Shown here piece after piece: positions 1-56,200 of a DNA stretch of 64,000 nucleotides. The stretch's first letter is position 1, and each line of letters opens with the position of its first letter. The translations under genes and the position numbers were made by a program. The notes below the pieces were generated by a model, which was not told where the DNA came from, did no database searches, and saw only the letters and a list, made by a program, of their open reading frames with translations. The stretch comes from Flexilinea sp. (GTDB taxonomy: Bacteria; Chloroflexota; Anaerolineae; Anaerolineales; Anaerolineaceae). The DNA is taken from contig JAPKMT010000003.1 in NCBI GenBank assembly GCA_026645735.1, positions 1 through 64,000 on the forward strand, given 5' to 3'.

Positions 1-70
1 TTTTCAATTTACAACACAATAGGACATTTCTAAATTGCTGTGATTAGGACATTTCTAAATTGCCTTGACA
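1..70. mobile_element. Terminus of an IS21-like insertion sequence
   Basis: Two direct copies of a 19-bp unit (TAGGACATTTCTAAATTGC) lie at 20-38 and 45-63 with a 25-bp period, and the element appears to end at 64-70 (CTTGACA). Read outward-in on the minus strand the end is TGTCAAGGCAATTTAGAAAT, followed by GTCC. A TG...CA end with tandem internal repeats ending in GAAATGTCC is typical of IS21-family (istA/istB) termini. The homology of the TRAP permease gene stops exactly here. Only the end is in the window; no transposase is seen, so the family assignment is inferred from the end sequence. Confidence 0.65.
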
Positions 71-1441
71 GATTAAGATCGCATACATCGATGCAACAAC
101 TGCTGCTTCAGTCGGTGTTGTCAATCCGCCGTATATGGTTACCATAATGATCACTGGAATCAGCAAAGCCCAGACAGCTTTTTTGAAAAGTTGAAAAGCA
201 ATTCGCCAGGAAAATCCATCTTCATTTTCCTCTGAAACGCCATATTTTCCTTTTCTGGCCCGGAAAAAGACATACAGACACAGAACAGCACAGATAACAA
301 TTCCAGGAATGGTTCCTGCTTTAAAGAGGTTGGTGATTGAAGCTCCGCTGACTGCTCCGTACAATACGAGAATTCCGCTTGGAGGTACAATCGCAGCAAG
401 TGTCCCGCCTGTCCCCAGCATGCCCGCTGCGAGGTCATCCGGGTATTTAGCTTTTCGAAGCATAGGAAATGCTACCATTCCCAATGCAGCTGCTGTTGCA
501 ACGCTGGATCCGGACATGGATGCAAATATAATTGATGCAATCATGATAGCAATTCCCACACCGCCGGATATTTTTTTCAATAAATAACAAGTAAAATCAA
601 CGATATATTTCCCCATTGGTGTTTTTGCGACGATGCTTCCAGCAAAAATGAAAAAAGGGATTGCGAGCATTGTGAATGAATTCGTAGCCCAAAATTGTTT
701 GGATGCGATTGAAGGCCACTTTACCATGTCAAAGGCATACAGTGTAACGGATCCCATCAAACCCATGGCAAATCCGATCGGCATTCCCATGAACATTAAC
801 AAAAACATTCCAATCAACATAACAGAAATGGCACTATCAGAGGTGAACGAGAATACAGCTAACGCAATAATGATTCCCAATACGGCAAAAGTGAACCAGT
901 CTCTATGCCAGCCTTTGTCCAATTTCGTTTTGATGATTCTTTCCAGCCAACGGCAAGTGATCAGAAAACCCGCCAGTGGCATGATAATGTATGGTATCCA
1001 CATGGGGGATTCTAAACGTGAGTCAGATACAGTGCCTTGTTTAAGGGCATTCATGACTAATTCAATTCCGCTGAAAAAGAGCATCGCACTATAAACCATA
1101 CAAAGCAGGCTGGTAGCTACGAACAGGACTTTCTGTCGGCCTTCGTTAAATTTTGTTACAAAAAAATCAACATTAATATGTTCATCAGGACGAGGCTTGA
1201 TTATCAGACTCGCGCCAATGAAATTTGACCAGATGACCAGGTAACGAACAATTTCCTCTGCCCAGAATAATGAAGTATTAAAGAAATATCGACTTAATAC
1301 CTGGTAAAACATTAACAACATCCCAAACGCTAAGAAAGATGAGGCAAAAATGTTTTCAAATGCAGACCAGATATCTCGTTTTGGCTTTTTGGGGATTATA
1401 ATATTGTTGGGATTTGGATGGGGTTCTGAAATTTCTTGCAT
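44..1441 (-). pseudogene. dctQM: TRAP transporter fused DctQ-DctM permease, 3' end lost to an IS
   Basis: This encodes the small (DctQ, about residues 25-175, four membrane helices) and large (DctM, from about residue 180) membrane subunits of a tripartite periplasmic organic-acid transporter in one chain. The DctM part shows the family features GMPIGFAMG and the conserved PTEAAVVASMYAIL segment. The chain ends right after that segment with CQGNLEMS, residues that are read from the IS end at 44-70. Intact DctQM fusions are around 600 residues; this one is 465, so the last helices of DctM are missing and transport is probably abolished. A good ribosome site (gaggagc) precedes the ATG at 1441. 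It lies downstream of dctP in the same operon. Confidence 0.82.
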
Positions 1442-1461
1442 TGTTTGCTCCTCAAATAAGC

Positions 1462-1490
1462 ATCATGGGGATTTTTCAGATCCCCATGAT
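1462..1490 (-). promoter_or_regulatory. Intercistronic stem-loop between dctP and dctQM
   Basis: Perfect 11-bp inverted repeat (ATCATGGGGAT / ATCCCCATGAT) with a 7-nt loop, located between the dctP stop and the dctQM ribosome site. On the coding (minus) strand no T-run follows, so it is more likely an mRNA 3'-end-protecting or partial attenuation hairpin than a full terminator. Such hairpins commonly raise the ratio of binding protein to permease. Confidence 0.55.
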
Positions 1491-1506
1491 TTTTTAAAAA
1501 AATCAA

Positions 1507-2529
1507 TTATTCGCCAAAATCAGCTACCGCTTTTTCGACAGTCTCGATCAAGTCAGCACCAATCGAATCGGCATATTCATCATATAATCCTTTTGTTGCC
1601 TCTTTCCAGGCTTCTGCTTCTTCCGGAGTAACTGTGTGAATTTCACAGCCTTCTGATTCAACATAAGTAAGCATTTCCTGCACTTCTTTTGCGTCATCAG
1701 CTCTCATCGTAGCAAGAACTTCGGTAATAATTGCGCTAAGATCTGTCCGAACATCTTCCGGCAAATCATTCCAGAAGGCATCATTGGCAAGAATAAATCC
1801 TACTGGCCAATATAAAAGGCCTGCATTGGTTACGAATTTATTGACTTCATGATATTTTCGAACGGCAAATACTGTGCTTGGAGTAGCCAAACCATCAACA
1901 ACTTTCTGTTGCAGACCGGTATAAGTCTCTTCTGAAGGTATAACAGTCGAAACACCTCCCAATGCATCGATAATGGCCGACTCCATTTTTCCGGAAGCAC
2001 GTAATTTCAATCCCGAAAAATCTGCTGGCATTTGGATAGGATGACTTGAATTGGAGATGATGACCGAACCTGAAGAAAACGCACCCAGAACATTGATCCC
2101 CTGTTTGTGGATATTTGCCAAGATATTTTGACCGATCTCACCATCCATAATCGCATAGGCTACATCTGCATTCGGGAACAGATAAGGCAGTTTGAAAATA
2201 CTCATTGTGGGATCTAATGTGGTCATGGTAGATCCAACAGCAAAACACATCTCAATGTCACCATTTTTTATGGCTTCAAGCTCTTCTGCGTTCGAATAAA
2301 GCTGTCCTCCGGTGTACGTCAGTAGCTCGACTTTGCCTGCAAGTCGTTCATCGACCAGCTGCTTAAACAACGCGATGCCTTTACCCATCTGCTGATTGTC
2401 CAATTGAACTGTTGTGACTTTAATTTTTACGGTGTCTGCAGGGGCAGCAGAAACAGACAGGCTTGTTATCGCGAGCAGCAATATCAGGCTGATAACAAAA
2501 ACAATAGTATTACGGGATCCTTTTTTCAT
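1507..2529 (-). CDS. dctP: TRAP transporter solute-binding protein (DctP family)
   Basis: Periplasmic or extracytoplasmic receptor that delivers a carboxylate-type substrate to the DctQM permease. The start is placed at the ATG at 2529 because an AAAGGAG site lies just upstream of it; a further in-frame ATG at 2547 precedes that site and is unlikely. The product of about 340 residues begins MKKGSRNTIVFV with a hydrophobic signal ending near SVSAA. The body carries the DctP hallmarks: the GIALFKQLVDE segment, the YLFPNADVAYAIMDG region and the substrate-contact stretch LKLRASGK. The substrate cannot be told from sequence. It lies between the IclR regulator and the permease, all on the minus strand. 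Confidence 0.9.
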   Translation of the reverse strand: MKKGSRNTIVFVISLILLLAITSLSVSAAPADTVKIKVTTVQLDNQQMGKGIALFKQLVDERLAGKVELLTYTGGQLYSNAEELEAIKNGDIEMCFAVGSTMTTLDPTMSIFKLPYLFPNADVAYAIMDGEIGQNILANIHKQGINVLGAFSSGSVIISNSSHPIQMPADFSGLKLRASGKMESAIIDALGGVSTVIPSEETYTGLQQKVVDGLATPSTVFAVRKYHEVNKFVTNAGLLYWPVGFILANDAFWNDLPEDVRTDLSAIITEVLATMRADDAKEVQEMLTYVESEGCEIHTVTPEEAEAWKEATKGLYDEYADSIGADLIETVEKAVADFGE

Positions 2530-2580
2530 ATATTCTCCTTTTGCCATAACTGGCGTATGTAAAAATTGTCTCCAGGCTGA

Positions 2581-3312
2581 TTAAAGAAAAAAGCCAAATT
2601 CAGAGCTGATTTCCTGTGAGCCTTTCAACAATAATTTCAAAAACTTTTCCTTATTCTCTTCAGTGAATCGTGCTTTAATGGATGCAATGGATAGAGATGC
2701 GACAATATTGCCTAAGGCATCTTTGATCGGTACAGCCATGGAGGCTGAACCCTGAAGTCTTTCACCGCTGCTGACCGCAAATCCGTCTAATTTAACTTGA
2801 TTGATATTCTTCTTAATTTTTTCAATTTCTTCAGCCTGAATTACATTTGTTTCCAGATATTTCTCTAAAATTTTCTCAGTTTCTTTTACTGATAATCCCG
2901 AGGCAATGATCTTTCCTGCAGATCCTATGAACAATGGAGCTTTTTCTCCGATTTTGATATTTCTGGTAATTTCCAGGTCGCCTTCAATTCGGAAGATACA
3001 GATCCTTTCATAACCGCTGATGATATTTAAGGAGACTGTTTCCCTTGTTTTTTCTGAAATCTCACGCATCACCGGAATGGCCAAATCCAGTAAACTAAAT
3101 TTGTTCTTGTCAGAAATCGCAATCGTCAACAACAAGGGAGTCAGTATGTACCCATATTTTGGTTTACTGGCTATGATTCCTTCTTTAATCAGACTTTGTA
3201 GAATACGCTGAACTGAACTGCGCGGAATTCCAGTATCTGCACTGATCGTATCGATTGTTTTTCCATTATTTGCTGCAATACTTTTTAAAATTCGAAATGT
3301 TTTTTCAATCAT
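2581..3312 (-). CDS. IclR-family transcriptional regulator
   Basis: 243 residues. Residues 1-60 form the winged helix-turn-helix (AANNGKTIDTISADTGIPRS, then the recognition helix VQRILQSL) and about 75-240 form the IclR effector-binding GAF-like domain (VSLNIISGYERICIFRIEG, GSAGKIIASGL, VSSGERLQGSASMAVPI). It is the first gene of the run that continues into dctP and dctQM, with about 50 bp between its stop and dctP, so it most likely controls uptake of the TRAP substrate. Paired palindromes immediately upstream suggest autoregulation. Confidence 0.9.
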   Translation of the reverse strand: MIEKTFRILKSIAANNGKTIDTISADTGIPRSSVQRILQSLIKEGIIASKPKYGYILTPLLLTIAISDKNKFSLLDLAIPVMREISEKTRETVSLNIISGYERICIFRIEGDLEITRNIKIGEKAPLFIGSAGKIIASGLSVKETEKILEKYLETNVIQAEEIEKIKKNINQVKLDGFAVSSGERLQGSASMAVPIKDALGNIVASLSIASIKARFTEENKEKFLKLLLKGSQEISSEFGFFL

Positions 3313-3326
3313 ATTTTCCCTAAAAA

Positions 3327-3365
3327 ATCCCGTTTTATGGGATATGTAATCCCAATATTTGGGAT
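3327..3365. promoter_or_regulatory. Tandem operator palindromes upstream of iclR gene
   Basis: Two identical-arm palindromes, ATCCC-N7-GGGAT, at 3327-3343 and 3349-3365. Their starts are 22 bp apart, about two helical turns, and they lie 15-53 bp upstream of the IclR start codon. IclR proteins bind as dimer pairs to repeated palindromes, so these are the probable operators for autoregulation and control of the TRAP operon. The binding itself is inferred. Confidence 0.65.
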
Positions 3366-3842
3366 ATATTGAAATTTTACAGTTTTATTTTGGGCAAAGC
3401 AAGGATTAATGTAATTGATCGATAGTGACAAAATGAAAAATCGGAAAAATATCATTTAAGGTATGACATCGAGGATCAATAAAAGGAAATTTCAGAAAAA
3501 GAAGCTAAATTAGTAAAAAAAGTAACTTTGGGAAACGATGAAAAAAAACTTCAGGTTTGTCACGAAGATTAAAAACTATTCAAAATAGCCAATGCAATTC
3601 CCTATAATTTTAAGAATCAATGTATGATACTTACCAGGGATTTTCTGAAATGAAAATATGAAATCATTGATAAGAAGAATCTAAATTTTTAAAATTTCGA
3701 AACCATGGTTCGACAATGGGTATCGTCAGTCCGGTTCGCAGGGATTCCTAGACTGTAAATACAACCCCTGCCGATTTTATAAACGATGGCCGACATTACA
3801 TTTTATTTGTACCAAAAAACGAAAGAAGATAAGGCATGCCAA
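3366..3842. other. Gene-free stretch between iclR and larE
   Basis: No convincing coding frame was seen. It must contain the promoters for the divergent iclR and larE genes. One weak stem (GCAGGG 3738-3743 with CCCTGC 3766-3771, 22-nt loop) lies shortly before larE; it fits no riboswitch that I recognise. Confidence 0.4.
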
Positions 3843-4649
3843 ATGAGTGATCTTGAAGAAAAATTCCTAAAACTACAAAATTACCTGAAAGAGTTGGGCA
3901 GCATTGCAGTCGCTTTTTCAGGCGGTGTTGATTCCACGTTTTTGCTGAAGACAGCTCATGATGTTTTAGGCGATCATGTGATTGCAGTTACTGCACAATC
4001 ATCCTCTTTTCCTAAGCGAGAATTAACGGAAGCAATTAACTTTACCGAGACGAATCATATTCGACATGTGATATTCGATTCAAATGAAATGGGCATACCC
4101 GGATTTGCCCAAAATCCTCCCAACCGCTGTTATATCTGTAAGAAAGGGATTTTTTCAAAAATCATTGAAATCTCAAAAGAACAGGGTATTTCTTTTATAG
4201 CAGAAGGTTCCAATATGGATGATTTGGGCGATTATCGCCCTGGTCTGCAGGCAATTCGGGAATTAGCGGTAAAAAGTCCATTGCAGTATGCGCAGCTTTA
4301 TAAAAAAGAAATTCGTCAGCTTTCGAAAGACATTGGGATTTCAGCCTGGGATAAGCCTTCCTATGCCTGTCTGGCTTCCCGTTTTGTCTATGGGGAAACA
4401 ATTACTCATGAAAAGTTACAAATGGTGGATCAAGCAGAGCAGTTTTTATTCGATTTAGGTTTTGTCCAGGTCCGAGTGAGAATTCACGGACTGATAGCCA
4501 GAATAGAAATTGAACCGGAAGCATTCGATCGCTTTTTGGAAAAAGCAATCCGCGAAAAAGTGGAAGAAAAATTGAAAAAAATCGGTTTTACTTATGTCAC
4601 ATTGGATTTACAAGGATATCGCTCAGGCAGTATGAATGAAATTCTATGA
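3843..4649 (+). CDS. larE: ATP-dependent sacrificial/catalytic sulfur transferase LarE
   Basis: PP-loop enzyme that adenylates and sulfurates the pyridinium dicarboxylate precursor of the nickel-pincer cofactor of lactate racemase and related enzymes. The PP-loop SGGVDS sits about 26 residues into the protein. Three cysteines are visible: the CYIC pair in PPNRCYICKK and the Cys in PSYACLASRF. This is the arrangement of the iron-sulfur LarE type (as in Thermotoga), whereas the single-cysteine sacrificial type has only the last one. I start at 3843 (MSDLEEKFLKL, with AAGG upstream, about 268 residues); an in-frame ATG at 3786 would add 19 residues with no ribosome site. larB, larC and larA are not in the window. 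Confidence 0.88.
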   Translation: MSDLEEKFLKLQNYLKELGSIAVAFSGGVDSTFLLKTAHDVLGDHVIAVTAQSSSFPKRELTEAINFTETNHIRHVIFDSNEMGIPGFAQNPPNRCYICKKGIFSKIIEISKEQGISFIAEGSNMDDLGDYRPGLQAIRELAVKSPLQYAQLYKKEIRQLSKDIGISAWDKPSYACLASRFVYGETITHEKLQMVDQAEQFLFDLGFVQVRVRIHGLIARIEIEPEAFDRFLEKAIREKVEEKLKKIGFTYVTLDLQGYRSGSMNEIL

Positions 4650-4714
4650 TATTTCGAACTGCTGGCTGAAAGATAGCGAAAATTTCTCCTCTCCAAGAAA
4701 ATTACATTGATATA

Positions 4715-4757
4715 AAATAGAGGTATGAATCATAATTTATGATTCGTACCTCTATTT
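4715..4757. repeat. 43-nt near-perfect palindrome between larE and cysK
   Basis: The left arm (21 nt, from AAATAGAGGTATG) pairs over its whole length with the right arm (ending CGTACCTCTATTT), with one G-T wobble and a 1-nt loop. Sequences like the dispersed element ends flank it (TATTTCGAACTGCTG near 4650 and ATATTTCGAATTATTG near 4799-4813), so it may be a divergent member of the same family with a different core. No T-run marks it as a terminator. Confidence 0.6.
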
Positions 4758-4991
4758 CGATCGATCAATAGCAAGTCAAAAGATGAATTCTTTTTTAATA
4801 TTTCGAATTATTGGTCGATCTATATTCGGTTAATTTTTTTGTTATGTTTTAGGGCTCTACAAAGCACGGCAAGAAAACCATATTCTAAATATAATTACGA
4901 TCCATATTCGAATGGCTGCTGAAAAAATCGGAATTGAATCACTACAGCCATCAACAAGTTACATTTTGTTTACGGGAAAAAGGTACCGAAA

Positions 4992-5927
4992 ATGAAAATT
5001 GCTTCCAATGTTACTGAACTTATCGGCAATACTCCTCTGGTTCGCATAAACCAATTATCCAAGGGTACAGGCGCCGTTGTCGCAGTGAAACTTGAGTCTT
5101 TTAATCCTGCGCATAGCATCAAGGATCGCATTGCAGCTGCTATGATCGAGACAGCAGAGCTTGATGGGAAATTAAAGAAGGGCATGACGATTGTTGAGCC
5201 CTCCAGCGGAAATACCGGTATTGGACTATCCATGGTTGCTGCTGCAAAAGGTTATCCCATCATGATTTTTCTGCCTGAAAATTTCAGCCGGGAACGACGC
5301 TTGATGATGCGTGCCTATGGTGCAGAGCTTGTTCTGACACCAGCCTCAGAAGGGATGAGCGGAGCCATAAAAAGAGCTGAAGAATTGGTCATCCAAGAAC
5401 CGGACAAATATTTCCTCCCTCAACAATTCAAGAATCCTGCCAATCCAGAAATTCATCGTACAACAACTGCGGAAGAGATTTGGCGCGATACGGATGGAAA
5501 AATCGATATATTGGTTGCTGGTGTCGGAACAGGTGGGACAATTACCGGAATAGGAGAAGTTCTGAAAAATCGCAAACCTTCTGTTCAGATTGTTGCGGTT
5601 GAACCGGATGCTTCTCCGGTTTTATCTGGTGGCTCAAAAGGACCTCATCAGATTCAGGGAATTGGAGCTGGATTCATTCCGGACGTCCTTAACACGCAAA
5701 TCTATGATGAAGTAATTCGAGTCAAAAACGAAGATGCGATGAGTACGGCACGCAGATTAGCGGCTGAAGAAGGTATTTTAGTCGGAATCTCCTCAGGTGC
5801 TGCAGTATGGGCAGCGCTGCAAGTGGCTGCCCGAATTGAAAGTTCTGCAAAACTGATTGTTGTAATCATTCCGGATTTTGGAGAGCGCTATTTGAGTACA
5901 GTCTTGTTTTCTGATCTGGCAGAATGA
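4992..5927 (+). CDS. cysK: Cysteine synthase (O-acetylserine sulfhydrylase)
   Basis: PLP-dependent enzyme making cysteine from O-acetylserine and sulfide. The 311-residue length is standard. Visible are the N-terminal [14 protein letters not shown], the PLP lysine K44 in NPAHSIKDR, the PSSGNTG substrate loop, the GTGGTITG phosphate-binding loop and the C-terminal [10 protein letters not shown] region. The ATG at 4992 follows an AAAAGG site. It stands alone between repeat-bearing intergenic regions, so it is probably monocistronic. Confidence 0.95.
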
Positions 5928-5964
5928 TGAATATGAAAAAAATCTTCCGAATTTGTAAAATACG

Positions 5965-6040
5965 GATCGATTTCAGTGATTCGAAATATTTTTTTTCTAT
6001 CAGAAAAGCATTTCCATATTTTGAATTGCTGGATCGATTT
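5965..6040. repeat. MITE-like element, short form, with perfect 9-bp target duplication
   Basis: The element body 5974-6031 (58 bp) begins CAGTGATTCGAAATATT and ends CATATTTTGAATTGCTG, imperfect inverted repeats. It is flanked by the direct repeat GATCGATTT at 5965-5973 and again at 6032-6040 (9/9 identical). The body has no coding capacity. This is the clearest evidence in the window that the family moves by transposition. Confidence 0.82.
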
Positions 6041-6132
6041 TCAAAAAATACTGGCTCACTGATTCATAATGTCTAAGTCAGTTCCTTCTTAATAAAAAAT
6101 GTTTTGCATAATACTAAAAAACTGGAGGGATC

Positions 6133-7221
6133 ATGAATTCACGGGAACGCGTTTATGCAGCACTGCGGCATCAGGATGTGGATAGGGTTCCGATTTTCAT
6201 GTGGTTCCATCCAGAAACGACAAAGCATTTAAGCGAATTGCTGGAGATTCCTGTAAATGCTGTCGGTGATGTAATGGGGAATGATATTCATCAGGCATGG
6301 GTGAACAATAATCTTGCCATGGAGGGCATTGTTCATGATCGGGATGGTGAGTTCCATATGGATGATTGGGGAATTACCTGGACGAGAAGCTATGGATTCA
6401 ACCAAATTACACATTTCCCATTGAAGAATAAAACCAAAGAAGAAGTACTGGCATATCAATTTCCGATACATAAAATTGATGATTTTTTAAAGCGTATGAT
6501 TCCAGTGATGGATACTCGGGATCAATTTTTTGTCGGATGTGATGTATCACCTTGTGCCTTTGAATTATTATGGCGGTTACGAGGTATGGACTCTGTGTTG
6601 CTGGATATGATTGAAGATCCTGACTTTTCGCAAACGATGATTGATCGCTGTATTGATTTTTCAATTTTCCTGGCGGAAGCGGCTTGTGATCGGTATCAAC
6701 TTGACTGGCTCTGGACTGGTGATGATGTGGCGTCCCAACAACAAATGATGTTTCGTCCAAATATGTGGCGACAGATGATCCGACCTGGACTGCAACGATT
6801 GTTCGATGTGGGTAAGTCGCATCATTTGTTTGTTGCATACCATTGTTGCGGCAGTCTGCGTCCGATTATTCCCGATCTCATTGAGATGGGATTGAATGTC
6901 CTCAATCCGATTCAGAGCAATTGCCCTGGTATGGAAGCGTTGGCGTTGAAACGGGAGTTCGGCAAAGAATTGACCTTTATGGGTGGTGTCGATACCCAGC
7001 GATTGCTTCCCAACGGGACAGTTCTGGAGGTTCGGGAGGCAATTCATCAATTATTAAACCAGATGGAAGCAGACAGAGGTGGATATATTCTTGCTGCTTC
7101 TCATACGATACCTCCGGAAACACCCGACGAGAATATCTTTGCAATGTATCAGGAAGCAGGTTTAAGTAAGGAAGCGATTTTCGATCATGCTGCACAGGTC
7201 AGAAAAAAAATGATCAAATGA
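6133..7221 (+). CDS. UroD-like methyltransferase-family protein (MtaA/CmuA fold)
   Basis: 362 residues with the uroporphyrinogen decarboxylase fold. The N-terminus MNSRERVYAALRHQDVDRVP is the hallmark of the MtaA/CmuA branch of UroD-like proteins, which move methyl groups between corrinoid proteins and thiols, rather than of heme-pathway HemE. The metal-binding segment shows AYHCCGS (H237, C238, C239) and the C-terminal SHTIPPETPDENI motif. The distal cysteine that completes the HxC...C zinc site in MtaA-type enzymes is not evident. GGAGG lies 5 nt before the ATG. No corrinoid protein gene is adjacent, so the substrate is unknown. Confidence 0.8.
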   Translation: MNSRERVYAALRHQDVDRVPIFMWFHPETTKHLSELLEIPVNAVGDVMGNDIHQAWVNNNLAMEGIVHDRDGEFHMDDWGITWTRSYGFNQITHFPLKNKTKEEVLAYQFPIHKIDDFLKRMIPVMDTRDQFFVGCDVSPCAFELLWRLRGMDSVLLDMIEDPDFSQTMIDRCIDFSIFLAEAACDRYQLDWLWTGDDVASQQQMMFRPNMWRQMIRPGLQRLFDVGKSHHLFVAYHCCGSLRPIIPDLIEMGLNVLNPIQSNCPGMEALALKREFGKELTFMGGVDTQRLLPNGTVLEVREAIHQLLNQMEADRGGYILAASHTIPPETPDENIFAMYQEAGLSKEAIFDHAAQVRKKMIK

Positions 7222-7274
7222 TCATTAAAACTGGTTGGAAATGAAAACACACACCATTCTTTTTGTGGATTGAC

Positions 7275-7301
7275 CATCCCAAAGAAGGATGTTTTTTTTT
7301 T
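7275..7301 (+). terminator. Rho-independent terminator
   Basis: CATCC / GGATG stem with a 7-nt loop followed by about ten T residues, 50 bp past the stop of the UroD-like gene; a weaker outer stem using upstream CCATTCTTT can extend it. Confidence 0.65.
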
Positions 7302-7345
7302 ATAAAAATTTGCGGCACAATCCCAGAATTTTCTGGAATAAATTC

Positions 7346-8989
7346 CTATTGTTTCAACAGAATTCCATCAAAGAATACATATGCTTTTTTACCTTCCTGA
7401 TCTGTAGAGAACTGAATCAAAGAAAAGTAAATCACATCGCCTTCCGGTGTTATCAAGCGGTTTGTTAATTCAGCCTTTTCATTCTCATTCGTGGGATCTG
7501 CTGTCAGATATTCCTGAATTAATTTGGACATATCTACAGTGATGACTGATTCTTCCTCAACATTTTTAAAAGGTACTGCATTCAGGATTACCGGTTCCTG
7601 ATTGGAATAAAAATGGATTTCACTCAGACTCTTAAAACCCTGAATATCAATCCCATCCAAAGTGAATTGATGGACGAAATACCGTTCCTGACTAAAAATA
7701 TCCTGGTATTGGGAGCTGTTTTCTATGCTGTTGATTTGTTCCTGGCTTAATCCTTCAAGAATTTGTTTTCCATCATCCAATTCTTTTAAATAAAAATACG
7801 CTCCTGCAATTCTTCGTTGCTCTTCCGGTGCCCATTGTTCAAAGGATGCTGTGTTTATTTTTCCTAATGTTTGTTTTTGATTGTCAATCGAACTGCTGAA
7901 CATGTTAAGACCAGGGACTATTAATACTGCAACCGTAAGAATCGAAAAAATTATCAGGATCGATTCAGTCTGTCCTTTTTTTTGCCAATGCAAAACGATA
8001 TAGGCGATTTCAAAGATAATCATCGCAACACAAAGATAGCGGAGCGGAGTTAATCCATATTCAAAAATTCGGATGCCTATTGAATATCCCTGAAGCCCAA
8101 GGAATGGAATAAATATATAGGGGAGTTTCTTTGTGACTTTGACAAGAAGATTATCATCAGGAAAAAACCCTGTCATTGTCCAGATTGGCAGGCCAATGAT
8201 GAACAGTGCAGCAATAATTCTGAATATTTCGTTGGATGGAACGATTTGTGTGATAAATATTCGCAGGATATATAAATAAATGATAGCGAAAGCAATGATG
8301 AGTAAAATATTTAAAATATATTTCACAATGATACTGAAAAAACTGGAAATCTCTTCTTTGAGGTTCCGTAATGAGGAAAGGAACCCGATTCCGACAACAT
8401 TGCAGTTGATGAGCACCTGCAGTCTCATCATGGAGTCGTAATTCTTGCTATCCAAAATCAGAAAAATAAAAATCAATGAGATCAGAGAAATACCGGCGGA
8501 CAGAATTGCAGCAATAATTCCAATTTTTGTCAGATTTTCAAAAACATGAATAGCAAAATCGTTGAAATCCAAATTGGATTTCCGAAATATTCCATAAATA
8601 CTGATGATGAATAGAACAATCCACCAGGTTAGCATTGTTCTCGCGATCTGGTATTGATTCAAATCAGCAGCGATGGACCAGAAAGAGACATCTTTTTGTC
8701 GAGACAGAAAGATGAAACTGAGGGCGATGGCAGCAAAAAAACAGATACTAATCCAACGGATTCTTTTTTTTGAGGAGAAATATACTTCGGCCAGAAATGA
8801 ACCAGGTCCCCAGAGAATGAGGAAAGGCAACATTCCATCTACCAGAAACTTAAAATTCTGTTCTTTCTGATCCAGCACGATCGATAAGATGATCGAAATG
8901 AGAATCACCAGTGTTGCTGTAGCAGGAAATGTTTGAAATGTGTTCTTGATTTCACTTGAAAAATTATTAAAAATGGATTTTATTTTCAT
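7346..8989 (-). CDS. DUF4153-type multi-spanning membrane protein
   Basis: About 547 residues. The N-terminal two-thirds holds roughly ten hydrophobic segments; the C-terminal third is hydrophilic (from about SSSIDNQKQTLGKI on). The layout, with membrane helices followed by 'LNMFSSSIDNQKQTL', fits the DUF4153 family of unknown function. I start at the ATG at 8989 (MKIKSIFNNF), which has a GAGAAAGAA site. An upstream in-frame ATG at 9070 would add 27 residues encoded by the adjacent mobile repeat and is unlikely. No functional clue comes from its neighbours. Confidence 0.7.
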   Translation of the reverse strand: MKIKSIFNNFSSEIKNTFQTFPATATLVILISIILSIVLDQKEQNFKFLVDGMLPFLILWGPGSFLAEVYFSSKKRIRWISICFFAAIALSFIFLSRQKDVSFWSIAADLNQYQIARTMLTWWIVLFIISIYGIFRKSNLDFNDFAIHVFENLTKIGIIAAILSAGISLISLIFIFLILDSKNYDSMMRLQVLINCNVVGIGFLSSLRNLKEEISSFFSIIVKYILNILLIIAFAIIYLYILRIFITQIVPSNEIFRIIAALFIIGLPIWTMTGFFPDDNLLVKVTKKLPYIFIPFLGLQGYSIGIRIFEYGLTPLRYLCVAMIIFEIAYIVLHWQKKGQTESILIIFSILTVAVLIVPGLNMFSSSIDNQKQTLGKINTASFEQWAPEEQRRIAGAYFYLKELDDGKQILEGLSQEQINSIENSSQYQDIFSQERYFVHQFTLDGIDIQGFKSLSEIHFYSNQEPVILNAVPFKNVEEESVITVDMSKLIQEYLTADPTNENEKAELTNRLITPEGDVIYFSLIQFSTDQEGKKAYVFFDGILLKQ

Positions 8990-8998
8990 ATCATTTTC

Positions 8999-9071
8999 TT
9001 TCTCAATCAGAAATTCGAAATTCGGACATAATTTCCTCTCAGTATTCGAATTGTTGTTTCCCTTTCTCAAT
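8999..9071. repeat. MITE-like element, short form, next to the DUF4153 gene start
   Basis: Ends CAGAAATTCGAAATTCGG (9008-9025) and AGTATTCGAATTGTTG (9041-9056) form an imperfect inverted repeat. The direct repeat TTTCTCAAT occurs at 8999-9007 and 9063-9071. The right copy is displaced by 6 bp from the expected element end, so the target duplication is likely but not clean. Confidence 0.65.
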
Positions 9072-9125
9072 GCAAAAAAAAATTTTTCACCTGAGTGTGG
9101 AAATCACATACGACTTGGTCCATAG

Positions 9126-10241
9126 CTATTTCCGATTTTTCAGGTAAATTGCCAATCGCTCCAGTATCTCCGGAAAATTTTCACGTCCAAAACCGACACG
9201 AAAATGTTTCCTGTCAAAATCATATACGTAAGAAGGCAGCAATAAGATTCCGGTTGTATCAATAATTTCCTGGCAGAAAACCGTTGTGTCTTCATTCGTT
9301 ATCAATTTTGGAAAACCAATGGTACCCGCTTTCGGTTTAATCCATGCCAACATTTCAGAGTACTCTGATAAAAAGGAGTCAAAAACTGTCAGATTTCTGT
9401 GAATTCTCTCCAAATGTTCACAGATGACTTTATCTTTGTTTCTTAATACGATAATGGATAAAATTTCACTCGGAGCGCTGCTGCAGATCGTAGTGTAATC
9501 CTTGAATGCAGCTATTTTTGAATATAGATCATGGTCTTTCGTTACGATCCAACCAATTCTCGCTCCAGCCAGTCCAAAAATCTTTGACATTCCCATCAGC
9601 GATACTGCTTTCTCATAGATTTCGCAGGCTGCGGGAAGACGATCAGATGCATCATACTCCAAAAAACGATACATTTCATCGGAGAACAGATAAATTTGGT
9701 GGCTTTCGGCGATAGCGACAATTTTCAAAAAATCTTCTTTCGAAGGCAGGAAACCCGTCGGATTGTGAGGAAAATTGACCACAATCAGTTTCGTGTTTGG
9801 CCGGATGTGTGCTTCTAAAAAATCAGGATCAAACCGCCAACCGTTTTCTTCCTCAGGAGTCCAAAGCGTGACTTCGCATTTTGCATTTTCGGCAATTTGA
9901 TACAGCGATTGATATCCCGGAAAAGTGCAAATGACATGATCTCCCTCATCCAAAATAACATTCATCGTCAGAAAGATGCCTTCTTCCGGAACAGATACTA
10001 AACATTCATTGGATTGTATACCTCGATATAAGGCAGCAATTTCTTCTCTCAACAGCGGATGTCCGAGTGATTCAGTATAACCGAGATGCAGGTTCTCCCA
10101 TAGATTTCTGGTTTCTGCATCTGCCATATTTAAAATATTTTTCAACGATAAACCATCGCAATCAGAACAACAAAGGAGATAACGGGCTGAGAATTCATAA
10201 CGAGCAAAATAACGTTCCAAAGAAAATGGTTTATTTTTCAA
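9126..10241 (-). CDS. PLP-dependent aminotransferase, class I/II
   Basis: 371 residues, fold type I aminotransferase. Motifs in order: LGYTESLGHPLLREEIA near residue 54, the aromatic FPGYQSLY loop, NFPHNPTGF (substrate carboxylate and PLP contact), the SDEMYRFLEY Asp/Tyr pair that holds the PLP ring, and the Schiff-base lysine in MGMSKIFGLAGARIGW. The start codon is TTG at 10241 with AAAGGA upstream; no better ATG exists. The substrate is not predictable; it resembles the capreomycidine-synthase/aspartate-type group. It is a single gene on the minus strand. Confidence 0.85.
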   Translation of the reverse strand: MKNKPFSLERYFARYEFSARYLLCCSDCDGLSLKNILNMADAETRNLWENLHLGYTESLGHPLLREEIAALYRGIQSNECLVSVPEEGIFLTMNVILDEGDHVICTFPGYQSLYQIAENAKCEVTLWTPEEENGWRFDPDFLEAHIRPNTKLIVVNFPHNPTGFLPSKEDFLKIVAIAESHQIYLFSDEMYRFLEYDASDRLPAACEIYEKAVSLMGMSKIFGLAGARIGWIVTKDHDLYSKIAAFKDYTTICSSAPSEILSIIVLRNKDKVICEHLERIHRNLTVFDSFLSEYSEMLAWIKPKAGTIGFPKLITNEDTTVFCQEIIDTTGILLLPSYVYDFDRKHFRVGFGRENFPEILERLAIYLKNRK

Positions 10242-10371
10242 GATTTAAGTCCTTTGAGAAAAAAAATGGTGCTGTATTGTTGAAATGCAGCAAAGTGCAC
10301 ATCGATTTCAGATCCGATGAAAAAATCGAAAAACCGATGGAACGATTCTGGCTATCTGGTATATCAATGAA

Positions 10372-10929
10372 TTACTTTCTTCGGTAAAGTCCAATCAATT
10401 CAGTCTGCGCCAAAATATGATTTTTCATTGCCGTTTCGATCATAATTTTATCCGGATGATCCATTGTTGACAGGATGGTGTCTAATGCGTATAGCTTAAA
10501 AAAGTAACGATGTGTACCGGATGGCGGGCATGGACCTCCATACGAAAAATTGCCAAAGCTGTTTTTCCCCTGGATGCCGGCTGGCTTTGAATCTTCCTGA
10601 ATTTTATTACTTTCAACCGGAAGGTTGTAAAGGATCCAATGGACCCATGTGCCGGAAGGAGCATCCGGATCATCAACGATCAGGACGAAACTTCGGGTGC
10701 CATCAGGAATTTCCGAGAATTCCAGCGGTGGATTGATGTTTTTTCCATCACAAGTATATTGTGGCGGAATCAATTGTGTATTTTCAAAGGCCGTGCTGGT
10801 GATCTTCATAGTACCTTCCTTGGTCTTCTGGTATTGGAATGTCTGTTGTAAGAATACTCCTGCAGAAAAAAGTAGCGTTGTCAATCCGAGAAAAAACATG
10901 AAAAAAGACGCTTTCCAGATTCTGATCAC
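10372..10929 (-). CDS. YbhB/YbcL-type PEBP (Raf kinase inhibitor-like) protein, membrane-anchored or secreted
   Basis: 185 residues from a GTG start at 10929 with a strong GGGAGG site. An N-terminal hydrophobic segment (about 8-28) acts as a signal or anchor, then a phosphatidylethanolamine-binding-protein domain follows with DDPDAPSGTWVHWILYNLP and GPCPPSGTHRYFFKLYALD, the two anion-pocket motifs. Bacterial members are common and of unclear function. Confidence 0.9.
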   Translation of the reverse strand: MIRIWKASFFMFFLGLTTLLFSAGVFLQQTFQYQKTKEGTMKITSTAFENTQLIPPQYTCDGKNINPPLEFSEIPDGTRSFVLIVDDPDAPSGTWVHWILYNLPVESNKIQEDSKPAGIQGKNSFGNFSYGGPCPPSGTHRYFFKLYALDTILSTMDHPDKIMIETAMKNHILAQTELIGLYRRK

Positions 10930-10998
10930 GTTTACCTCCCTATACCCCTCTTAACCAACATTATATATTGAAAAATTCATCATGAAACCATCATATTT

Positions 10999-11146
10999 CA
11001 GCGATTCGTAGTATGGAAAAAAATAAATGTTGTTGTGGTGTTTTGCGCAAAGCGCAAAACACCACAACAACATATTTTATCTCACTATTCGACAAGCAAA
11101 TTCAACGTTTTTTATTGAATAGCAATTAGAAAGTTGAATTTGCTTG
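10999..11146. repeat. MITE-like element, long form with perfect 22-bp core palindrome
   Basis: The left end CAGCGATTCGTAGTATGG at 10999-11016 is followed by a perfect palindrome: arms 11027-11048 and 11052-11073 with an AAA loop and the GCGC tip shared by other copies. The right side carries CTCACTATTCGACAAGC and a second perfect 14-bp inverted repeat (CAAGCAAATTCAAC 11093-11106 with GTTGAATTTGCTTG 11133-11146). The right terminus is rearranged and no target duplication is clear. It lies between two minus-strand genes. Confidence 0.75.
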
Positions 11147-11180
11147 AGCGAAGAATTGTTCAATTACCAATCTGCATCTA

Positions 11181-12380
11181 TTAATAAGGCCTGGGACCCG
11201 GAATGAAATATTGATTATATGAGTTGATTATTGCGCAGGTAACGTTTTCACCGTTATTCAGAATAATTGAATTTTGATCAAAGAGTGGAATATCAACACC
11301 TTCCCGTGTCTGACAGCTCCACTCACTCCTATTGTAATCATCAGAGTCGACATCGAAATTGTTTACGACCGCATTCAACGTGTATTTCTTACCTGCTGCA
11401 ATGGAATGGGGTATACCAGATTCAAAAATAATATTATTTTCATTGGAGACAGCCGTCATTGTCCAGTCAGATCTTCTGGCCAACCCGTTTCCTTTGACAT
11501 GATTAATTAATGTCAGGATCGGAAAGTTGGGTGTGCTGCCTAAACTTCTTGAATTTGTAAAAACACAAGTAACGATTTCATTTTCTGCTATGTTGATATT
11601 GGATGCAATCTGATTTTTTCCCAGAGAACTGGAGCAAGCTGATGAAGTTCTCCAGCCTGATACACCTGTTTGTGTCAGGCTATAGATTCCAGGCATCGCG
11701 TAACCACTCCATTGCAGCGGGTAAATGGCACTATTGGAATATGTATCATCGTTATCATCATCAAGTGTAAAATACTTCTCTGCCATTGCGGATGACTGCC
11801 CTATTAATGAATATTGAAAATCCTGGGGATCCATATCTGAGAGTGTATCTTCTTCGATAATAATGATCGGTGTACGGGGACGATTATAAAAATAGCATTG
11901 GATATCTGTGTTATCACTGACTTCAATTTCTTGAATTCCACGGTCATCCCAATCCAGATACTCCAAATCCAACTCGTAGCTGTCTGTTCCAGAGCAATAC
12001 CCATAAACAAAAGTATAAAAAGAGGGAACAACCGGGATATTTAGGTTCAAGTAAGCAAAACTGCTTGTGAGTGTGACCATATAAGGTCCAATAATACCTT
12101 GTGAATTGGTAGTTCCGGATGTAGAAGATATGCTGCCGCCGCTTGAAACATTTGTCTCAAAAGACCATCCGCTACCTGGAAATTGATCACCATCACTGTT
12201 AGTCATAAAATTGGCGCCATTCAGATCGATAATATTATGGATGGTCACTGAACTGGATGCTTCCACTGGCGCTGCTGCCATCAAGAGAAATCCCATGATT
12301 ATGATTATGACTACTTTTTGTTTAAGATTGCTTCTTCGAAAAGCTGTCCTGCACCGAATTAGTTGATTTTTGATATGCAT
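11181..12380 (-). CDS. Secreted protein of unknown function with Cys-x-(F/I)-x-N repeats
   Basis: About 399 residues from the ATG at 12380 (AAAGG upstream); longer starts at 12405 or a GTG at 12422 are possible. A basic N-terminus and a hydrophobic stretch (VVIIIIMGFLLMAAAPVEA) form a signal peptide. The rest is rich in Ser, Thr, Asn and Tyr and reads as about three related beta-rich units, each closing with Cys and Asn: TDIQCYFYNRP, EIVTCVFTNSR, ENVTCAIINSY. This ending is common in prealbumin-like or DUF11-like extracellular domains. No cell-wall sorting motif is seen at the C-terminus. The function is unknown. Confidence 0.7.
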   Translation of the reverse strand: MHIKNQLIRCRTAFRRSNLKQKVVIIIIMGFLLMAAAPVEASSSVTIHNIIDLNGANFMTNSDGDQFPGSGWSFETNVSSGGSISSTSGTTNSQGIIGPYMVTLTSSFAYLNLNIPVVPSFYTFVYGYCSGTDSYELDLEYLDWDDRGIQEIEVSDNTDIQCYFYNRPRTPIIIIEEDTLSDMDPQDFQYSLIGQSSAMAEKYFTLDDDNDDTYSNSAIYPLQWSGYAMPGIYSLTQTGVSGWRTSSACSSSLGKNQIASNINIAENEIVTCVFTNSRSLGSTPNFPILTLINHVKGNGLARRSDWTMTAVSNENNIIFESGIPHSIAAGKKYTLNAVVNNFDVDSDDYNRSEWSCQTREGVDIPLFDQNSIILNNGENVTCAIINSYNQYFIPGPRPY

Positions 12381-12850
12381 TTTCTGTCTACCTTTCTGTC
12401 CTGACATACCAGGAAAGTCCACTCTTCATTTTTTTCATTGTTTATGTTTTTTGGATATCTGGTTTATTTTTTTTTAAAAACGATTTTTCAATGTACGATT
12501 TTTTTGTGATCAAAGCGATTATCTTTATCTACTACACCAAATTGAATTGCAAAACGGATCGGATCAATAGGTATGTTGCAAGATTTATTCCAAATTAGAC
12601 TGGATAATATTGCGTATATCCTGATGTATTTTTGCAGAAAGAACAGGAAAATTAATGGTTTGAAATAGTCTAACTTTGGTTAAAAAATCTGATTGGACGT
12701 ATCAACCAACCATCAATAACCAGGAAATTTTTCCAATCAGGTTACAATTTGTGATGGAAAAAATAAAAATCATTTTGTCCGAAAAAAAAATTGAATGATG
12801 ATGACATAAGAAACCGTTGTTTTTACAAAATGAAGCGTACAAGAGGGAAA
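12381..12850. other. Gene-free divergent intergenic region
   Basis: AT-rich spacer between divergent genes. It should hold the promoters for both; I see no clear operator, RNA structure or mobile repeat end in it. Confidence 0.4.
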
Positions 12851-13255
12851 ATGAATCAATTTCAGAACAAGTTTAACCAGTTCATGCGTGGCCGATATGG
12901 AAACGATCAATTGAATATGGGTTTATTAATCCTTGGAATCATCCTATCGTTGATATCCTCTTTGTTTCGATCCGAGTTTTTGATGTTAATGGGTTATATT
13001 ATTTTCGGATTGACCATATATCGCGCATTTTCACGTAATTATCTGCGCAGGAGTAAAGAAAATTCCTGGTTCTTAAAGTATTGGTATCCAGTCGGAAACT
13101 GGTTTTCACGACAAAAACGACTTTTTAAAGACATGAAAACTTACAGATTCTTTCACTGTCCAGAATGTCATCAAAAGATACGTGTACCTAAAGGAAAAGG
13201 GAAAATCTGCATTACCTGTCCGAAATGCAGAACTGAATTCGTTAAAAAGACATAA
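12851..13255 (+). CDS. Small membrane protein with C-terminal zinc ribbon
   Basis: About 134 residues starting at MNQFQNKFNQFMRGRYGNDQLN, chosen because AAGAGGG lies just upstream; an ATG at 12791 would extend it by 20 residues without a site. Two hydrophobic segments (NMGLLILGIILSLISSLF and FLMLMGYIIFGLTIY) are followed by a basic linker and a zinc ribbon (CPECHQ...CPKCRTEF). Proteins of this plan are frequent in anaerobic Gram-positive-type genomes; their role is unknown. Confidence 0.75.
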   Translation: MNQFQNKFNQFMRGRYGNDQLNMGLLILGIILSLISSLFRSEFLMLMGYIIFGLTIYRAFSRNYLRRSKENSWFLKYWYPVGNWFSRQKRLFKDMKTYRFFHCPECHQKIRVPKGKGKICITCPKCRTEFVKKT

Positions 13256-13298
13256 CAAACTAAATAGAAATAAGTGTTAACTTGACATTGATAACGAT

Positions 13299-13422
13299 GC
13301 CGATTCGAAATATTGGCATTTTTTTTGTTGTTAAGTTGTTATTGCTCGAATCGCAGAACAACTTAACAACAAATTTTCTCACTTGAACCGAAAAGCTTAT
13401 CAGGATTTCTTATAATTGCTCC
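13299..13422. repeat. MITE-like element, long form, between convergent genes
   Basis: The left end GCCGATTCGAAATATTGG (13299-13316) is followed by a perfect 16-bp inverted repeat TTGTTGTTAAGTTGTT (13325-13340) with AACAACTTAACAACAA (13357-13372) around a 16-nt loop containing CTCGAATCGC, then TTTTCTCACTTGAACCGAAAAGC as in other copies and a degraded right end TATAATTGCT. It could also stop transcription of the two convergent genes. Confidence 0.7.
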
Positions 13423-13462
13423 TGCAAGAAGAAAATTGACGCTTTCCGATGACCAGGTAACA

Positions 13463-14644: not shown

Positions 14645-14764
14645 CCTTCTCTCCTTGTTATACACAGATAAATTACAAAATAATAACAAAGGTAATTATA
14701 GTCAGATTATGTGGACGATTTCCATTTTTTTTCATAAATCGAATCGCTGATTTTTTGTAAGAAA

Positions 14765-14866: not shown

Positions 14867-14962
14867 TTATTTATCAGAAAAGAAATTCATTTTTATCAAT
14901 CGTTGTAACTTTTTTTGTTTTTTTGCATCTAAATATAACGAAGAACATAAATGGAGCTGATT

Positions 14963-15970: not shown

Positions 15971-15987
15971 AAAAATTGGAGAAAAAA

Positions 15988-16323: not shown

Positions 16324-16355
16324 AAAAAATTATTTCCTGTATCTTTGAAAGATGG

Positions 16356-17928: not shown

Positions 17929-17940
17929 AAAACACATAAC

Positions 17941-17985: not shown

Positions 17986-17995
17986 TTCGACCATA

Positions 17996-22093: not shown

Positions 22094-22192
22094 TCTGATC
22101 GGCAATAATTCGAAATATGGATAAGCTTTTCGAATTGAAAGAGAAAATTTGTTGTTGCATTGTTTTTAGATTTCGAATTACTGTCTGATCGG
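22094..22192. repeat. MITE-like element inside the Trs-like operon, perfect 9-bp target duplication
   Basis: The body 22103-22183 (81 bp) begins CAATAATTCGAAATATGG and ends TTTCGAATTACTG; the ends are inverted repeats (12 of 13). It is flanked by TCTGATCGG at 22094-22102 and 22184-22192 (9/9 identical). Only the left arm of the core palindrome is present (TTGTTGTTGCATTGTTTTT). It separates the methyltransferase stop from the C-GCAxxG-C-C start. Confidence 0.82.
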
Positions 22193-25386: not shown

Positions 25387-25466
25387 TAGGACTGCCAGTA
25401 ATTCGAAATTTGAAAAAATTCTTTATTCAAAATGTCAATCCAAATTTCGAATTGCTGTAGGACTTC
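25387..25466. repeat. MITE-like element, short form, with 8/9 target duplication
   Basis: The body 25396-25457 (62 bp) begins CAGTAATTCGAAATTTG and ends CCAAATTTCGAATTGCTG, an almost perfect inverted repeat. Flanks are TAGGACTGC (25387-25395) and TAGGACTTC (25458-25466). It lies in the 365-bp spacer between the aldehyde oxidoreductase gene and the Trs-like operon; the rest of that spacer holds only the terminator at 25641-25675 and presumably the operon promoter. Confidence 0.8.
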
Positions 25467-32574: not shown

Positions 32575-32732
32575 ATTGTAACCTATCCGGGATCTCAAAT
32601 ATGGAGTGGATTATTCTCTTTTTTTTGAAAAGCCTTTTTTGAAAAAAGAGAAAACTTGTTGTTGTGTTGTTTTTGCGCGGAGCGCAAAAACAACACAACA
32701 ACAAGTAATTCTCCCCATATTTCGAATCGCTG
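32575..32732. repeat. MITE-like element, long form with perfect 24-bp core palindrome
   Basis: Core arms 32655-32678 and 32682-32705 are perfect complements around GGA, with the GCGC tip. To the left is the shared stretch GAAAAGCCTTTTTTGAAAAA (from about 32627), to the right the end CCCATATTTCGAATCGCTG, finishing at 32732. The extreme left end is degraded and a target duplication is not clear. It sits between divergent genes, so it cannot be a terminator for either. The rest of the 328-bp gap holds nothing else recognised. Confidence 0.78.
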
Positions 32733-37883: not shown

Positions 37884-38024
37884 GTGATGGATCAGTAATT
37901 TGAAGTATGGAAAAAAAAGATTGTTGTTGTGGTGTTTTTGCACAAAGCGCAAAAATACCACAACAAGACATTTTCTCTCACTATTCGAAAAGCATGTCCA
38001 TATTGCGAATAGCGAGTGATGAAT
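37884..38024. repeat. MITE-like element, long form, with 8/9 target duplication
   Basis: The body 37893-38015 (123 bp) begins CAGTAATTTGAAGTATGG and ends TCCATATTGCGAATAGCGA. Flanks are GTGATGGAT (37884-37892) and GTGATGAAT (38016-38024). The core palindrome arms 37924-37943 and 37947-37966 pair with two imperfections around AAA. The right arm carries the shared CTCACTATTCGAAAAGC. It lies upstream of glyA-gcvT; the rest of this 400-bp gap holds no gene or riboswitch that I recognise. Confidence 0.8.
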
Positions 38025-41130: not shown

Positions 41131-41207
41131 CTCATCATCCAGTAATTCGAAATTTGGAAAAGCCCTTTGAGAAAAATGAGAAAACTTCGAATCGCTGCTC
41201 ATCATTC
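41131..41207. repeat. MITE-like element, short form, with 8/9 target duplication
   Basis: The body 41140-41197 (58 bp, the same length as the copy at 5974) begins CAGTAATTCGAAATTTGG and ends CTTCGAATCGCTG. Flanks are CTCATCATC (41131-41139) and CTCATCATT (41198-41206). The internal stretch CCTTTGAGAAAAATGAGAAA matches the left arm of the long copies at 32627 and 39370. Confidence 0.8.
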
Positions 41208-46953: not shown

Positions 46954-47024
46954 CAGCAATTTGAATTATAGTTCGGATTATTTCTTCTTTCCTTTGAAAA
47001 ATTGTTCTAAATTTCAAATTTCTG
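46954..47024. repeat. Degenerate MITE-like element between phoB and phoR
   Basis: Ends CAGCAATTTGAATTATAG (46954) and TTCTAAATTTCAAATTTCTG (to 47024) form a weak inverted repeat that matches the family consensus. No core palindrome or clean target duplication is seen. It is the only gap in an otherwise tightly packed operon. Confidence 0.45.
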
Positions 47025-50105: not shown

Positions 50106-50228
50106 CAGTAATTTGAAATTTGTAATGAATCCGTTTGGTCCTTATGGTTTTAGGCTCCGCGTAAAAACCATAAGAGCTACATATTTCCTCTTTTTATTCG
50201 AAAGGTTTTTCCATATTTTGAATTACTG
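50106..50228. repeat. MITE-like element, long form, degraded core
   Basis: Ends CAGTAATTTGAAATTTG (50106) and CCATATTTTGAATTACTG (to 50228) are well matched inverted repeats. The core CTTATGGTTTT (50141-50151) with AAAACCATAAG (50164-50174) is the same arm type as the copy at 48820. The flanks do not repeat. The remaining 140 bp up to the kinase gene hold its promoter and nothing else that I see. Confidence 0.72.
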
Positions 50229-54409: not shown

Positions 54410-54539
54410 CGGTAATCCGATATTTGATGAGGATGGTTTATAGGTGTGTTGTTTTTGCGTTTCACGCTCATCCAACGCACCTATAAGCTATTTCAATTAA
54501 TTCGTAAGACTCTTATATTTCGAAATTCGGGGATTACTG
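54410..54539. repeat. MITE-like element, long form, divergent core
   Basis: Ends CGGTAATCCGATATTTG (54410) and CGAAATTCGGGGATTACTG (to 54539) are inverted repeats. The core TTATAGGTGTGTTG (54438-54451) pairs with CAACGCACCTATAA (54473-54486) with one G-T wobble. The loop has TTTTTGCGT...ACGC, a relic of the GCGC tip. It lies between convergent genes. Confidence 0.68.
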
Positions 54540-55585: not shown

Positions 55586-56200
55586 ATATGCTCCTTTTCA
55601 TGGAATTTAATATATTGTCGAAAATGGTCTGCAATTCTGTCTGCGGGTATATTTGCGATCTGTATTACTGAGCTGTGAATCCTCGATCTGTAAAGGATTA
55701 TTTTTCATTCTCAGGTAATTTTCAATTGCCAGACGTGCATATCGAATTTTAGATATCCTGCAAGAATTAGATCGAGAACTGCAGAAAAAATGCAGATATT
55801 TTCATATATGATCGATTGATTGTAAAACTAAAAGTCAAATTTTTGAATAACCTTTCAAACCAGCAATTCGAAATCGGGTAAGAACTTTTGACCTAAGAGA
55901 GAAGTTTTGTTATCGTGTTGTTTTTGCGCAGAACGTAAACGAACTACGATAAAAAATAATTCACCCCTTAATACGAATCGTATTATTGATTTTAGAATAA
56001 CAATTTATGATTTATGTCATATAATTTGTTTAAGAATCATAGCTTAATATCATCTATATATTTACTCGAGACTTGATATAATCAGTTATACCGTTGTAAA
56101 CGTTTGCAATCCCAAATCGTTTTCCATTATTGCATGCGTTTCGGCAAAATCCAGTTTGTGTAAGTTGTTATAAGTTTTCTATATTTTTAAGGAGAAGATA
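55586..56200. other. Divergent intergenic region with a degraded MITE-like copy and promoter
   Basis: The 615-bp gap carries a degraded element from CAGCAATTCGAAATCGGG (55861) to about 55990, with a decayed core (TTATCGTGTTGTTTTTGCGC, then ACGATAA). The right part holds the transporter promoter and operator at 56077-56109. No gene was recognised at 55586-55860. Confidence 0.6.
56077..56109 (+). promoter_or_regulatory. -10 box and LacI-type operator before the sugar-binding protein gene
   Basis: TATAAT at 56077-56082 is followed 12 bp later by TTGTAAACGTTTGCAA (56094-56109), a near-perfect palindrome with the central ACGTTT / AACGTT core of LacI/GalR-family operators. Its place just downstream of the -10 box suggests repression. 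No LacI-type gene is in the window; the -35 box is weak. Confidence 0.65.

Follow-up and report, generated by a model that had tools for sequence, protein, structure and literature searches.

Dispersed sites in this Flexilinea genome that share inverted-repeat ends are, judging from their sequences and flanks, almost certainly copies of one MITE family. An original prediction to this effect, made for the 64,000-nucleotide stretch analyzed here (the window; G000:C33:1-64000), is supported by short inverted-repeat elements, 9-bp target duplications of fixed length, empty sites, and a matching insertion sequence in Flexilinea flocculi. At 43-150 bp, the copies cannot accommodate a transposase gene. 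We give high credence to a joint explanation, in which the MITE would be moved by a transposase, its palindromic core would be shaped by template switching, and its short copies would be palindrome-deleted forms.

Ends, copies, and target duplications

Family ends read CAG(C/T)AATTCGAAAT(A/T)TGG. With up to 3 mismatches, CAGYAATTCGAAATWTGG matches the host genome (3.35 Mb, 86 contigs, 92% complete) 549 + 498 = 1047 times, whereas the reversed pattern matches 3 + 0 times; at the same tolerance the window holds 13 end-sequence matches versus 0.23 expected. A weight matrix was trained on a 452-kb sample of the host genome (the window plus 20 stretches totaling 388 kb), where it found 380 ends versus 18 on the reversed sequence; sample densities lean high because the stretches were picked around listed matches. 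These ends form 159 pairs under 3 kb, of which 110 are under 400 bp, totals that are slightly inflated since a few pairs have an end in common. Pairs of up to 150 bp occupy 2.3% of the sample. Within the window, the matrix scores 53 places as end-like and yields 10 pairs of 40-400 bp (see the table for individual copies). By simple arithmetic, these 10 pairs extrapolate to about 500 per genome, and 77 pairs in 460 kb of F. flocculi extrapolate to about 590 per 3.5 Mb.

Copies of the family in the window (positions are those of the window)
Feature	Position	Strand	Observations
Short copy, 58 bp (the copy first predicted)	5974..6031	+	GATCGATTT at 5965-5973 and 6032-6040, 9/9
Short copy, 49 bp	9008..9056	+	Flanks 6/9
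Long copy, right end unrecognizable	10999..11121	+	Perfect 22-bp arms around AAA; end coordinate assumed from 123-bp length
Decayed long copy	13298..13420	+	Weak left end (matrix score 12), no recognized right end; end coordinate assumed
81-bp copy	22103..22183	+	Flanked twice by TCTGATCGG, 9/9; site empty in F. flocculi
Short copy, 62 bp	25396..25457	+	Flanks TAGGACTGC/TAGGACTTC, 8/9
Palindrome and right end of long copy, left end uncertain	32656..32732	-	25-bp perfect arms, loop GGA on + strand
Long copy, 123 bp, central palindrome	37893..38015	+	Flanks GTGATGGAT/GTGATGAAT, 8/9
Short copy, 58 bp	41140..41197	+	Flanks CTCATCATC/CTCATCATT, 8/9; 55/58 bases equal long copy minus palindrome
Short copy, 71 bp	46954..47024	+	Flanks 5/9
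123-bp copy, imperfect palindrome	50106..50228	+	Flanks 3/9; common to F. flocculi, within 94.7% block
121-bp copy, 5 arm mismatches	54410..54530	+	Flanks 2/9; common to F. flocculi, within 94.7% block
Decayed long copy: left end and part of palindrome	55861..55990	+	End coordinate arbitrary

The sequence of the flank repeat varies between copies. The five duplications first described in the window were confirmed where claimed, two at 9/9 (5974-6031 and 22103-22183) and three at 8/9 (25396-25457, 41140-41197, and 37893-38015), so that half of the window's 10 end pairs have flank repeats of 8/9 or 9/9; the remaining five match at 6, 5, 3, 2, and 2 of 9. These include a 146-bp pair (32587-32732) with a doubtful left end and flanks of 2/9. 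Sample-wide, 47 of the 110 pairs under 400 bp have 9-bp flanks that agree at 7/9 or better, compared with about 0.5% of comparisons between left and right flanks of different copies. Among the 99 pairs of 41-150 bp, 37 have flank repeats of at least 8/9 at length 9 and 62 fall below this level, while control lengths of 5-8 and 10-13 (k-1 of k or better) yield 0-3 pairs. F. flocculi behaves likewise, with 20/77 pairs at 8/9 or better at length 9 and 0-3 at other lengths. The earlier view that so many matching 9-mers are not due to chance thus holds, and the excess extends beyond the window in both genomes.

The main long form is 123 bp and carries a palindrome of about 23 bp around a 3-base loop. 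A long size class had been predicted and exists, but its peak is sharp at 123 bp rather than spread over 120-160 bp. Central palindromes with arms of at least 15 bp occur in 56 of the 68 sample pairs of 95-150 bp, and the element can be oriented because about 28 bp separate the palindrome from one end and about 46 bp from the other. Alignment to a long copy takes a single gap in 21 of 31 short pairs and two gaps in the other 10. By our own tally, the closest such alignments are identical at 55/58, 72/77, and 68/73 bases. The single gap deletes at least 80% of the palindrome in 18/31 (own tally), including 5974-6031, in which it takes out the palindrome and leaves 51/58 bases identical, and many short copies therefore look like palindrome-deleted long ones, a reading that is weaker than it looks since large internal deletions necessarily overlap the center. 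The palindrome is missing, wholly or in part, from five short copies whose flanks match at 9/9.

Most sample pairs are intergenic (85/99). Of 76 elements placed relative to crude gene calls, 48 lie between tandem, 20 between divergent, and 8 between convergent genes; convergent gaps show no excess on these calls (8/76 elements versus 13% of intergenic bases), which speaks against a terminator role. Rfam at gathering scores gave no match over the window, and a known RNA family was rejected on this basis.

A separate near-perfect palindrome, AATAGAGGTATGAATCAT ... ATGATTCGTACCTCTATT, lies at about 4714-4758, about 65 bp past the gene at 3786-4649 and near sequences that resemble MITE ends. Window positions 3881-5713 are 86% identical to a 1.85-kb stretch in another genome (G002, L130), whose other matches to window positions 1-20000 are at 66-75%.

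Related genomes, empty sites, and a candidate transposase

We searched 61 genomes for the ends with up to 2 mismatches. Within one genus, the host genome has 715 matches, F. flocculi TC1 (G010) 752, G003 156, and G008 11, and the remaining 10 congeners have 0-1 each; amplification is patchy across the genus. A genome of another genus (G028) has 40 matches, and the rest of the 61 have 0-5. The G028 ends, CAGCAATTCTCAATATGG, bound larger elements packed with several other repeats (L043-L087, odd numbers), many at contig edges, and one of them (L071) has TCCAACATA on both flanks, a 9-bp repeat read off the sequence. Although these larger elements have related ends, the transposase was not found in G028, which was set aside as a source of the partner. 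Phage carriage was likewise rejected: among 2.9 million viral contigs there were 8 exact matches, which we judge chance-like.

The window is colinear with positions 1.94-2.02 Mb of F. flocculi C3, in blocks of about 74-91% identity save for 47028-59851. These 12.8 kb are 94.7% identical between the species, as after recent exchange, and both elements inside are common to the two. We joined flanks across 10 window elements and 15 F. flocculi elements and searched for the joined site in the other species. Junction-spanning empty sites were found for 3 of the 25 elements, one of them clean: F. flocculi lacks the window copy at 22103-22183, and the window lacks two elements present in F. flocculi. 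Cleanest of the three is a 125-bp F. flocculi element with ATTACCCTC/ATTTCCCTC on its sides; the second F. flocculi element joins less well, and its flanks agree at 7/9. The only shared insertions (2/25) are those in the 94.7% block, and the remaining 20/25 are uninformative, their flanks matching apart (one or both) or not at all. The elements are thus not all at identical places in the two species.

A full-length insertion sequence with the ends of the family, which the original prediction had suggested looking for, is present in F. flocculi. It spans 1632 bp (L089:821-2452, contig NZ_DF968179.1), contains a single frame for a 446-aa DDE-type transposase, and is flanked by GCATTCTGT on both sides (9/9). 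Its ends, CAGCAATTCGAAATATGAGAAT and CAGTAATTCGAAAAATGAAAAC, are alike at 18/22 bases by our own count. A search for the transposase located one copy in F. flocculi and none in the host genome (a 92%-complete assembly), G003, G008, or G028. A search with PF01609 gave 16 matches in F. flocculi, one of which lies between two good family ends, one weak and truncated match in the host genome, and no match in G003, G008, or G028. The 446-aa protein itself scores below cut-off with both PF13808 (20.6 bits; cut-off, 32.3) and PF01609 (19.2 bits; cut-off, 23) and matches no NCBIfam model; of four relatives scanned, three match PF13808 and two PF01609, weakly. Weak as they are, these matches point to ISAs1 elements, of which the pairing of PF13808 and PF01609 is a signature and which have direct repeats of about 8-10 bp. 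We assign D128, D216, and E344 as putative catalytic residues from a four-row alignment in which only E344 is listed as invariant and one row is a fragment without the region of both aspartates. A sequence search of solved structures returned three weak matches, none relevant.

Relatives of this transposase seem rare: they occur in 3 of the 400 genomes of a phylum sample (E ≤ 1e-10) and at 4 loci, F. flocculi included, in GTDB contigs, where the search was pattern-based and thus confined to close relatives. Ends of the distant relatives were read from the sequence and by script, the inverted-repeat lists being mostly noise. One relative (L145, about 30% identity) belongs to an element at 1309-2956 with CAGCAATTCCCG at both ends and flanks of ATGTCGAGA (9/9), and L142 has the same ends with flanks of only 3/9. 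A transposase fragment in L143 lies near CAGCAATTCTCAATATGG, L106 begins CAGCAGTTCTCATTTTGG, and L107 has CAGCGGTTCCCGCTG at both ends with flanks of only 3/9. Where readable, the ends of L145, L142, L143, and L106 resemble those of the family. A member of this transposase clade is very probably the partner of the family. In L106:1894-3210, a 41%-identical relative is truncated, and the 439-aa frame after it resembles, from its translation, a group II intron reverse transcriptase.

Two other candidates were rejected as partners. A truncated transposase on C83 (labeled IS1634-like here) is not bounded by family ends; the one strong end pair near it is a separate 123-bp element. Copies of a 518-aa F. 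flocculi transposase are not bounded by family ends either. F. flocculi C2 and C3 (L090-L101) match this 517/518-aa transposase at 12 places; five tandem pairs, spaced 1625-1628 bp, account for 10 of these and may be either tandem insertion-sequence dimers or an assembly effect.

Together, these findings bear on whether the repeats move at all. Their mainly intergenic placement (85/99) would also suit an immobile regulatory or structural repeat that is conserved together with its flank repeats. We consider that reading refuted and its probability close to nil, because the flank repeats vary by copy and stand out at length 9 only, empty sites exist, and an insertion sequence shares both the ends and the duplication length. 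For the mobile element that we favor, a transposase of the F. flocculi type, or a lost relative, would bind the family ends in trans and join them to the strands of a cut staggered by 9 bp; filling of the gaps would yield the duplication. Points that weigh against this picture are the 62/99 sample pairs whose flanks fall short of 8/9, the negative search for the transposase in the host genome, G003, G008, and G028, and the 3/9 flanks of L142 and L107.

Covariation and decay of the palindrome

We compared the palindrome arms of 54 oriented copies from the host genome (one copy with an even loop was left out). Changes on both sides occur at 17 of 22 arm pairs. Double changes fill 117 cells versus 24.7 in shuffles (0 of 500 as high); this is a number of cells and not of events, as double changes are partly inherited by subfamilies. 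Only 20 cells are one-sided (G-U), and sliding the partner arm leaves 13-31 double cells. With gapless anchoring, 113 of 134 double changes are transversions. Palindromes are perfect over 22 pairs in 22/54 copies, compared with 2/28 in F. flocculi (5 even-loop copies left out).

Each insertion brings its own clock in the two copies of its duplication. In 34 long host-genome pairs with flanks of at least 7/9, inner arm pairs 5-20 mismatch at 6/544 positions and duplications at 27/306 (Fisher, 5e-8); over all 22 arm pairs the mismatch is 35/748 (p = 0.014). For 14 F. flocculi copies, inner arm pairs mismatch at 10/224 versus 13/126 in duplications (p = 0.04), and all 22 pairs (34/308 versus 13/126) show no difference. 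Arm mismatch in the host genome is 5.3% where flanks match at 6/9 or less versus 2.6-3.8% in other copies. Two window copies with a lost or unrecognized end still have matched arms: both arms of 10999-11121 are one base shorter than in the copy at 37893, a matched shortening, and in 13298-13420 the outer 17 bp still match and include a matched two-base difference from the consensus. Counter-examples in the window are the copies at 54410, with 5 arm mismatches, and 50106, with an imperfect palindrome. Relative to the flanks, loops occur in both orientations (GAA 13/TTC 10, AAA 6/TTT 5, TCC 6/GGA 3, and AGA 2/TCT 2), a modest effect: in both genomes, 57 of 5000 column shuffles reached the same symmetry.

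Published marks of template switching at inverted repeats include arm homogenization and spacer inversion, and a transversion preference is cited for bacteria (PMC8604942); template switching has also been proposed to generate compensatory changes in RNA stems (PMC8794818). During replication of the family described here, template switching between the arms would copy mutations across from one arm to its partner and now and then invert the loop, and deletion of the palindrome would give rise to many short copies, 5974-6031 included. We lean, by a modest degree, toward the view that arm matching is mainly due to template switching. Weighing against it are the less perfect palindromes of F. flocculi, where arm decay over all 22 pairs keeps pace with that of the duplications, the raised arm mismatch in host-genome copies with poorer flanks, and the modest size of the loop symmetry.

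The main rival is selection. The element would move as described, and its arms would be kept complementary by selection on a hairpin, in RNA or DNA, acting for example through transcript stability, termination, or protein binding. Strong covariation, arms that are better preserved than the flanking duplications, and the matched arms of the two decayed window copies are all expected from such selection. The predominance of transversions among double changes (113/134), the scarcity of one-sided cells (20 versus 117), the partial or complete palindrome loss in five short copies with 9/9 flanks, the occurrence of both loop orientations, and a placement that tracks intergenic space, with no excess between convergent genes (8/76 versus 13% of intergenic bases), argue against it, although none of these is decisive. 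We consider selection on the hairpin unlikely as the explanation of the arms.

Covariation could also stem from a few founder elements with different palindromes, copied faithfully, with arms untouched after insertion. Some arm types do recur (e.g., the CTTATGG type), and differences inherited by subfamilies contribute to the covariation. Against founders as its source, which we regard as improbable, there are 42 distinct left arms among the 54 copies, 39 further pair types over the 22 pairs versus 25.9 in shuffles, and inner arms that match better than the duplications made at insertion.

Relation to known systems and implications

Bacterial MITEs such as Correia, ERIC, QMITE, and Chunjie are described as short, mainly intergenic elements with terminal inverted repeats, target duplications, truncated variants, and up to hundreds of copies (PMC10969869), all of which apply here. 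MITEs of several hundred copies are already known, and 711 copies are cited for ERIC in Photorhabdus luminescens (PMC10969869). The present family departs from the MITEs described there in its ends, in its target duplication of 9 bp, in having its ISAs1-like partner in a sister species, and in the covariation of its central palindrome; we class it as a new family of MITEs whose palindrome core covaries. REPINs are likewise described as small mobile hairpins of extragenic space with compensatory changes, but they are REP doublets tied to RAYT transposases (PMC3116915), whereas our family has a DDE-type candidate partner and 9-bp repeats.

ISAs1 ends are given as 14-22 bp beginning CAGGG (PMC11946415), and the direct repeat as 10 bp (PMC11946415, PMC6305408). 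The partner element resembles ISAs1 in ends that begin CAG, in a duplication of similar length (9 bp in L089 and L145), and in weak matches to PF13808 and PF01609. It differs from the ISAs1 features described in these sources in that its ends begin CAGCAATTC or CAGTAATTC, without CAGGG, its Pfam matches are below cut-off, and its length is 1632 bp versus 1306 bp for ISArsp11 (PMC11946415, PMC6305408). Because the CAGGG feature is missing, we call the partner ISAs1-like and do not file it as an ISAs1 member.

Literature searches for Flexilinea flocculi with transposable elements, and for MITE, ISAs1, and target site duplication together, found nothing, and the matches listed for MITEs with Chloroflexi or Anaerolineae include no description of this kind. 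The analysis thus yields a MITE family and its probable transposase in a group without such a description among those matches.

The template-switching studies report the features seen here, namely arm homogenization, spacer inversion (including GAA to TTC), and the transversion preference cited for bacteria, and as described they cover yeast protein genes and RNA genes (PMC8604942, PMC8794818); our replicates are the copies, over 50 in number, of a single mobile element in part of one genome. Covariation is widely taken as strong evidence for a functional RNA, and the more than 50 sample copies can test mutation alone as its cause. On a narrow balance of probability, the palindrome core evolves by template switching, and its transversion-rich covariation across hundreds of copies may have arisen without RNA function. 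If so, the hundreds of copies in one genome would amount to a natural replicate experiment on template switching, with no RNA function behind the covariation.
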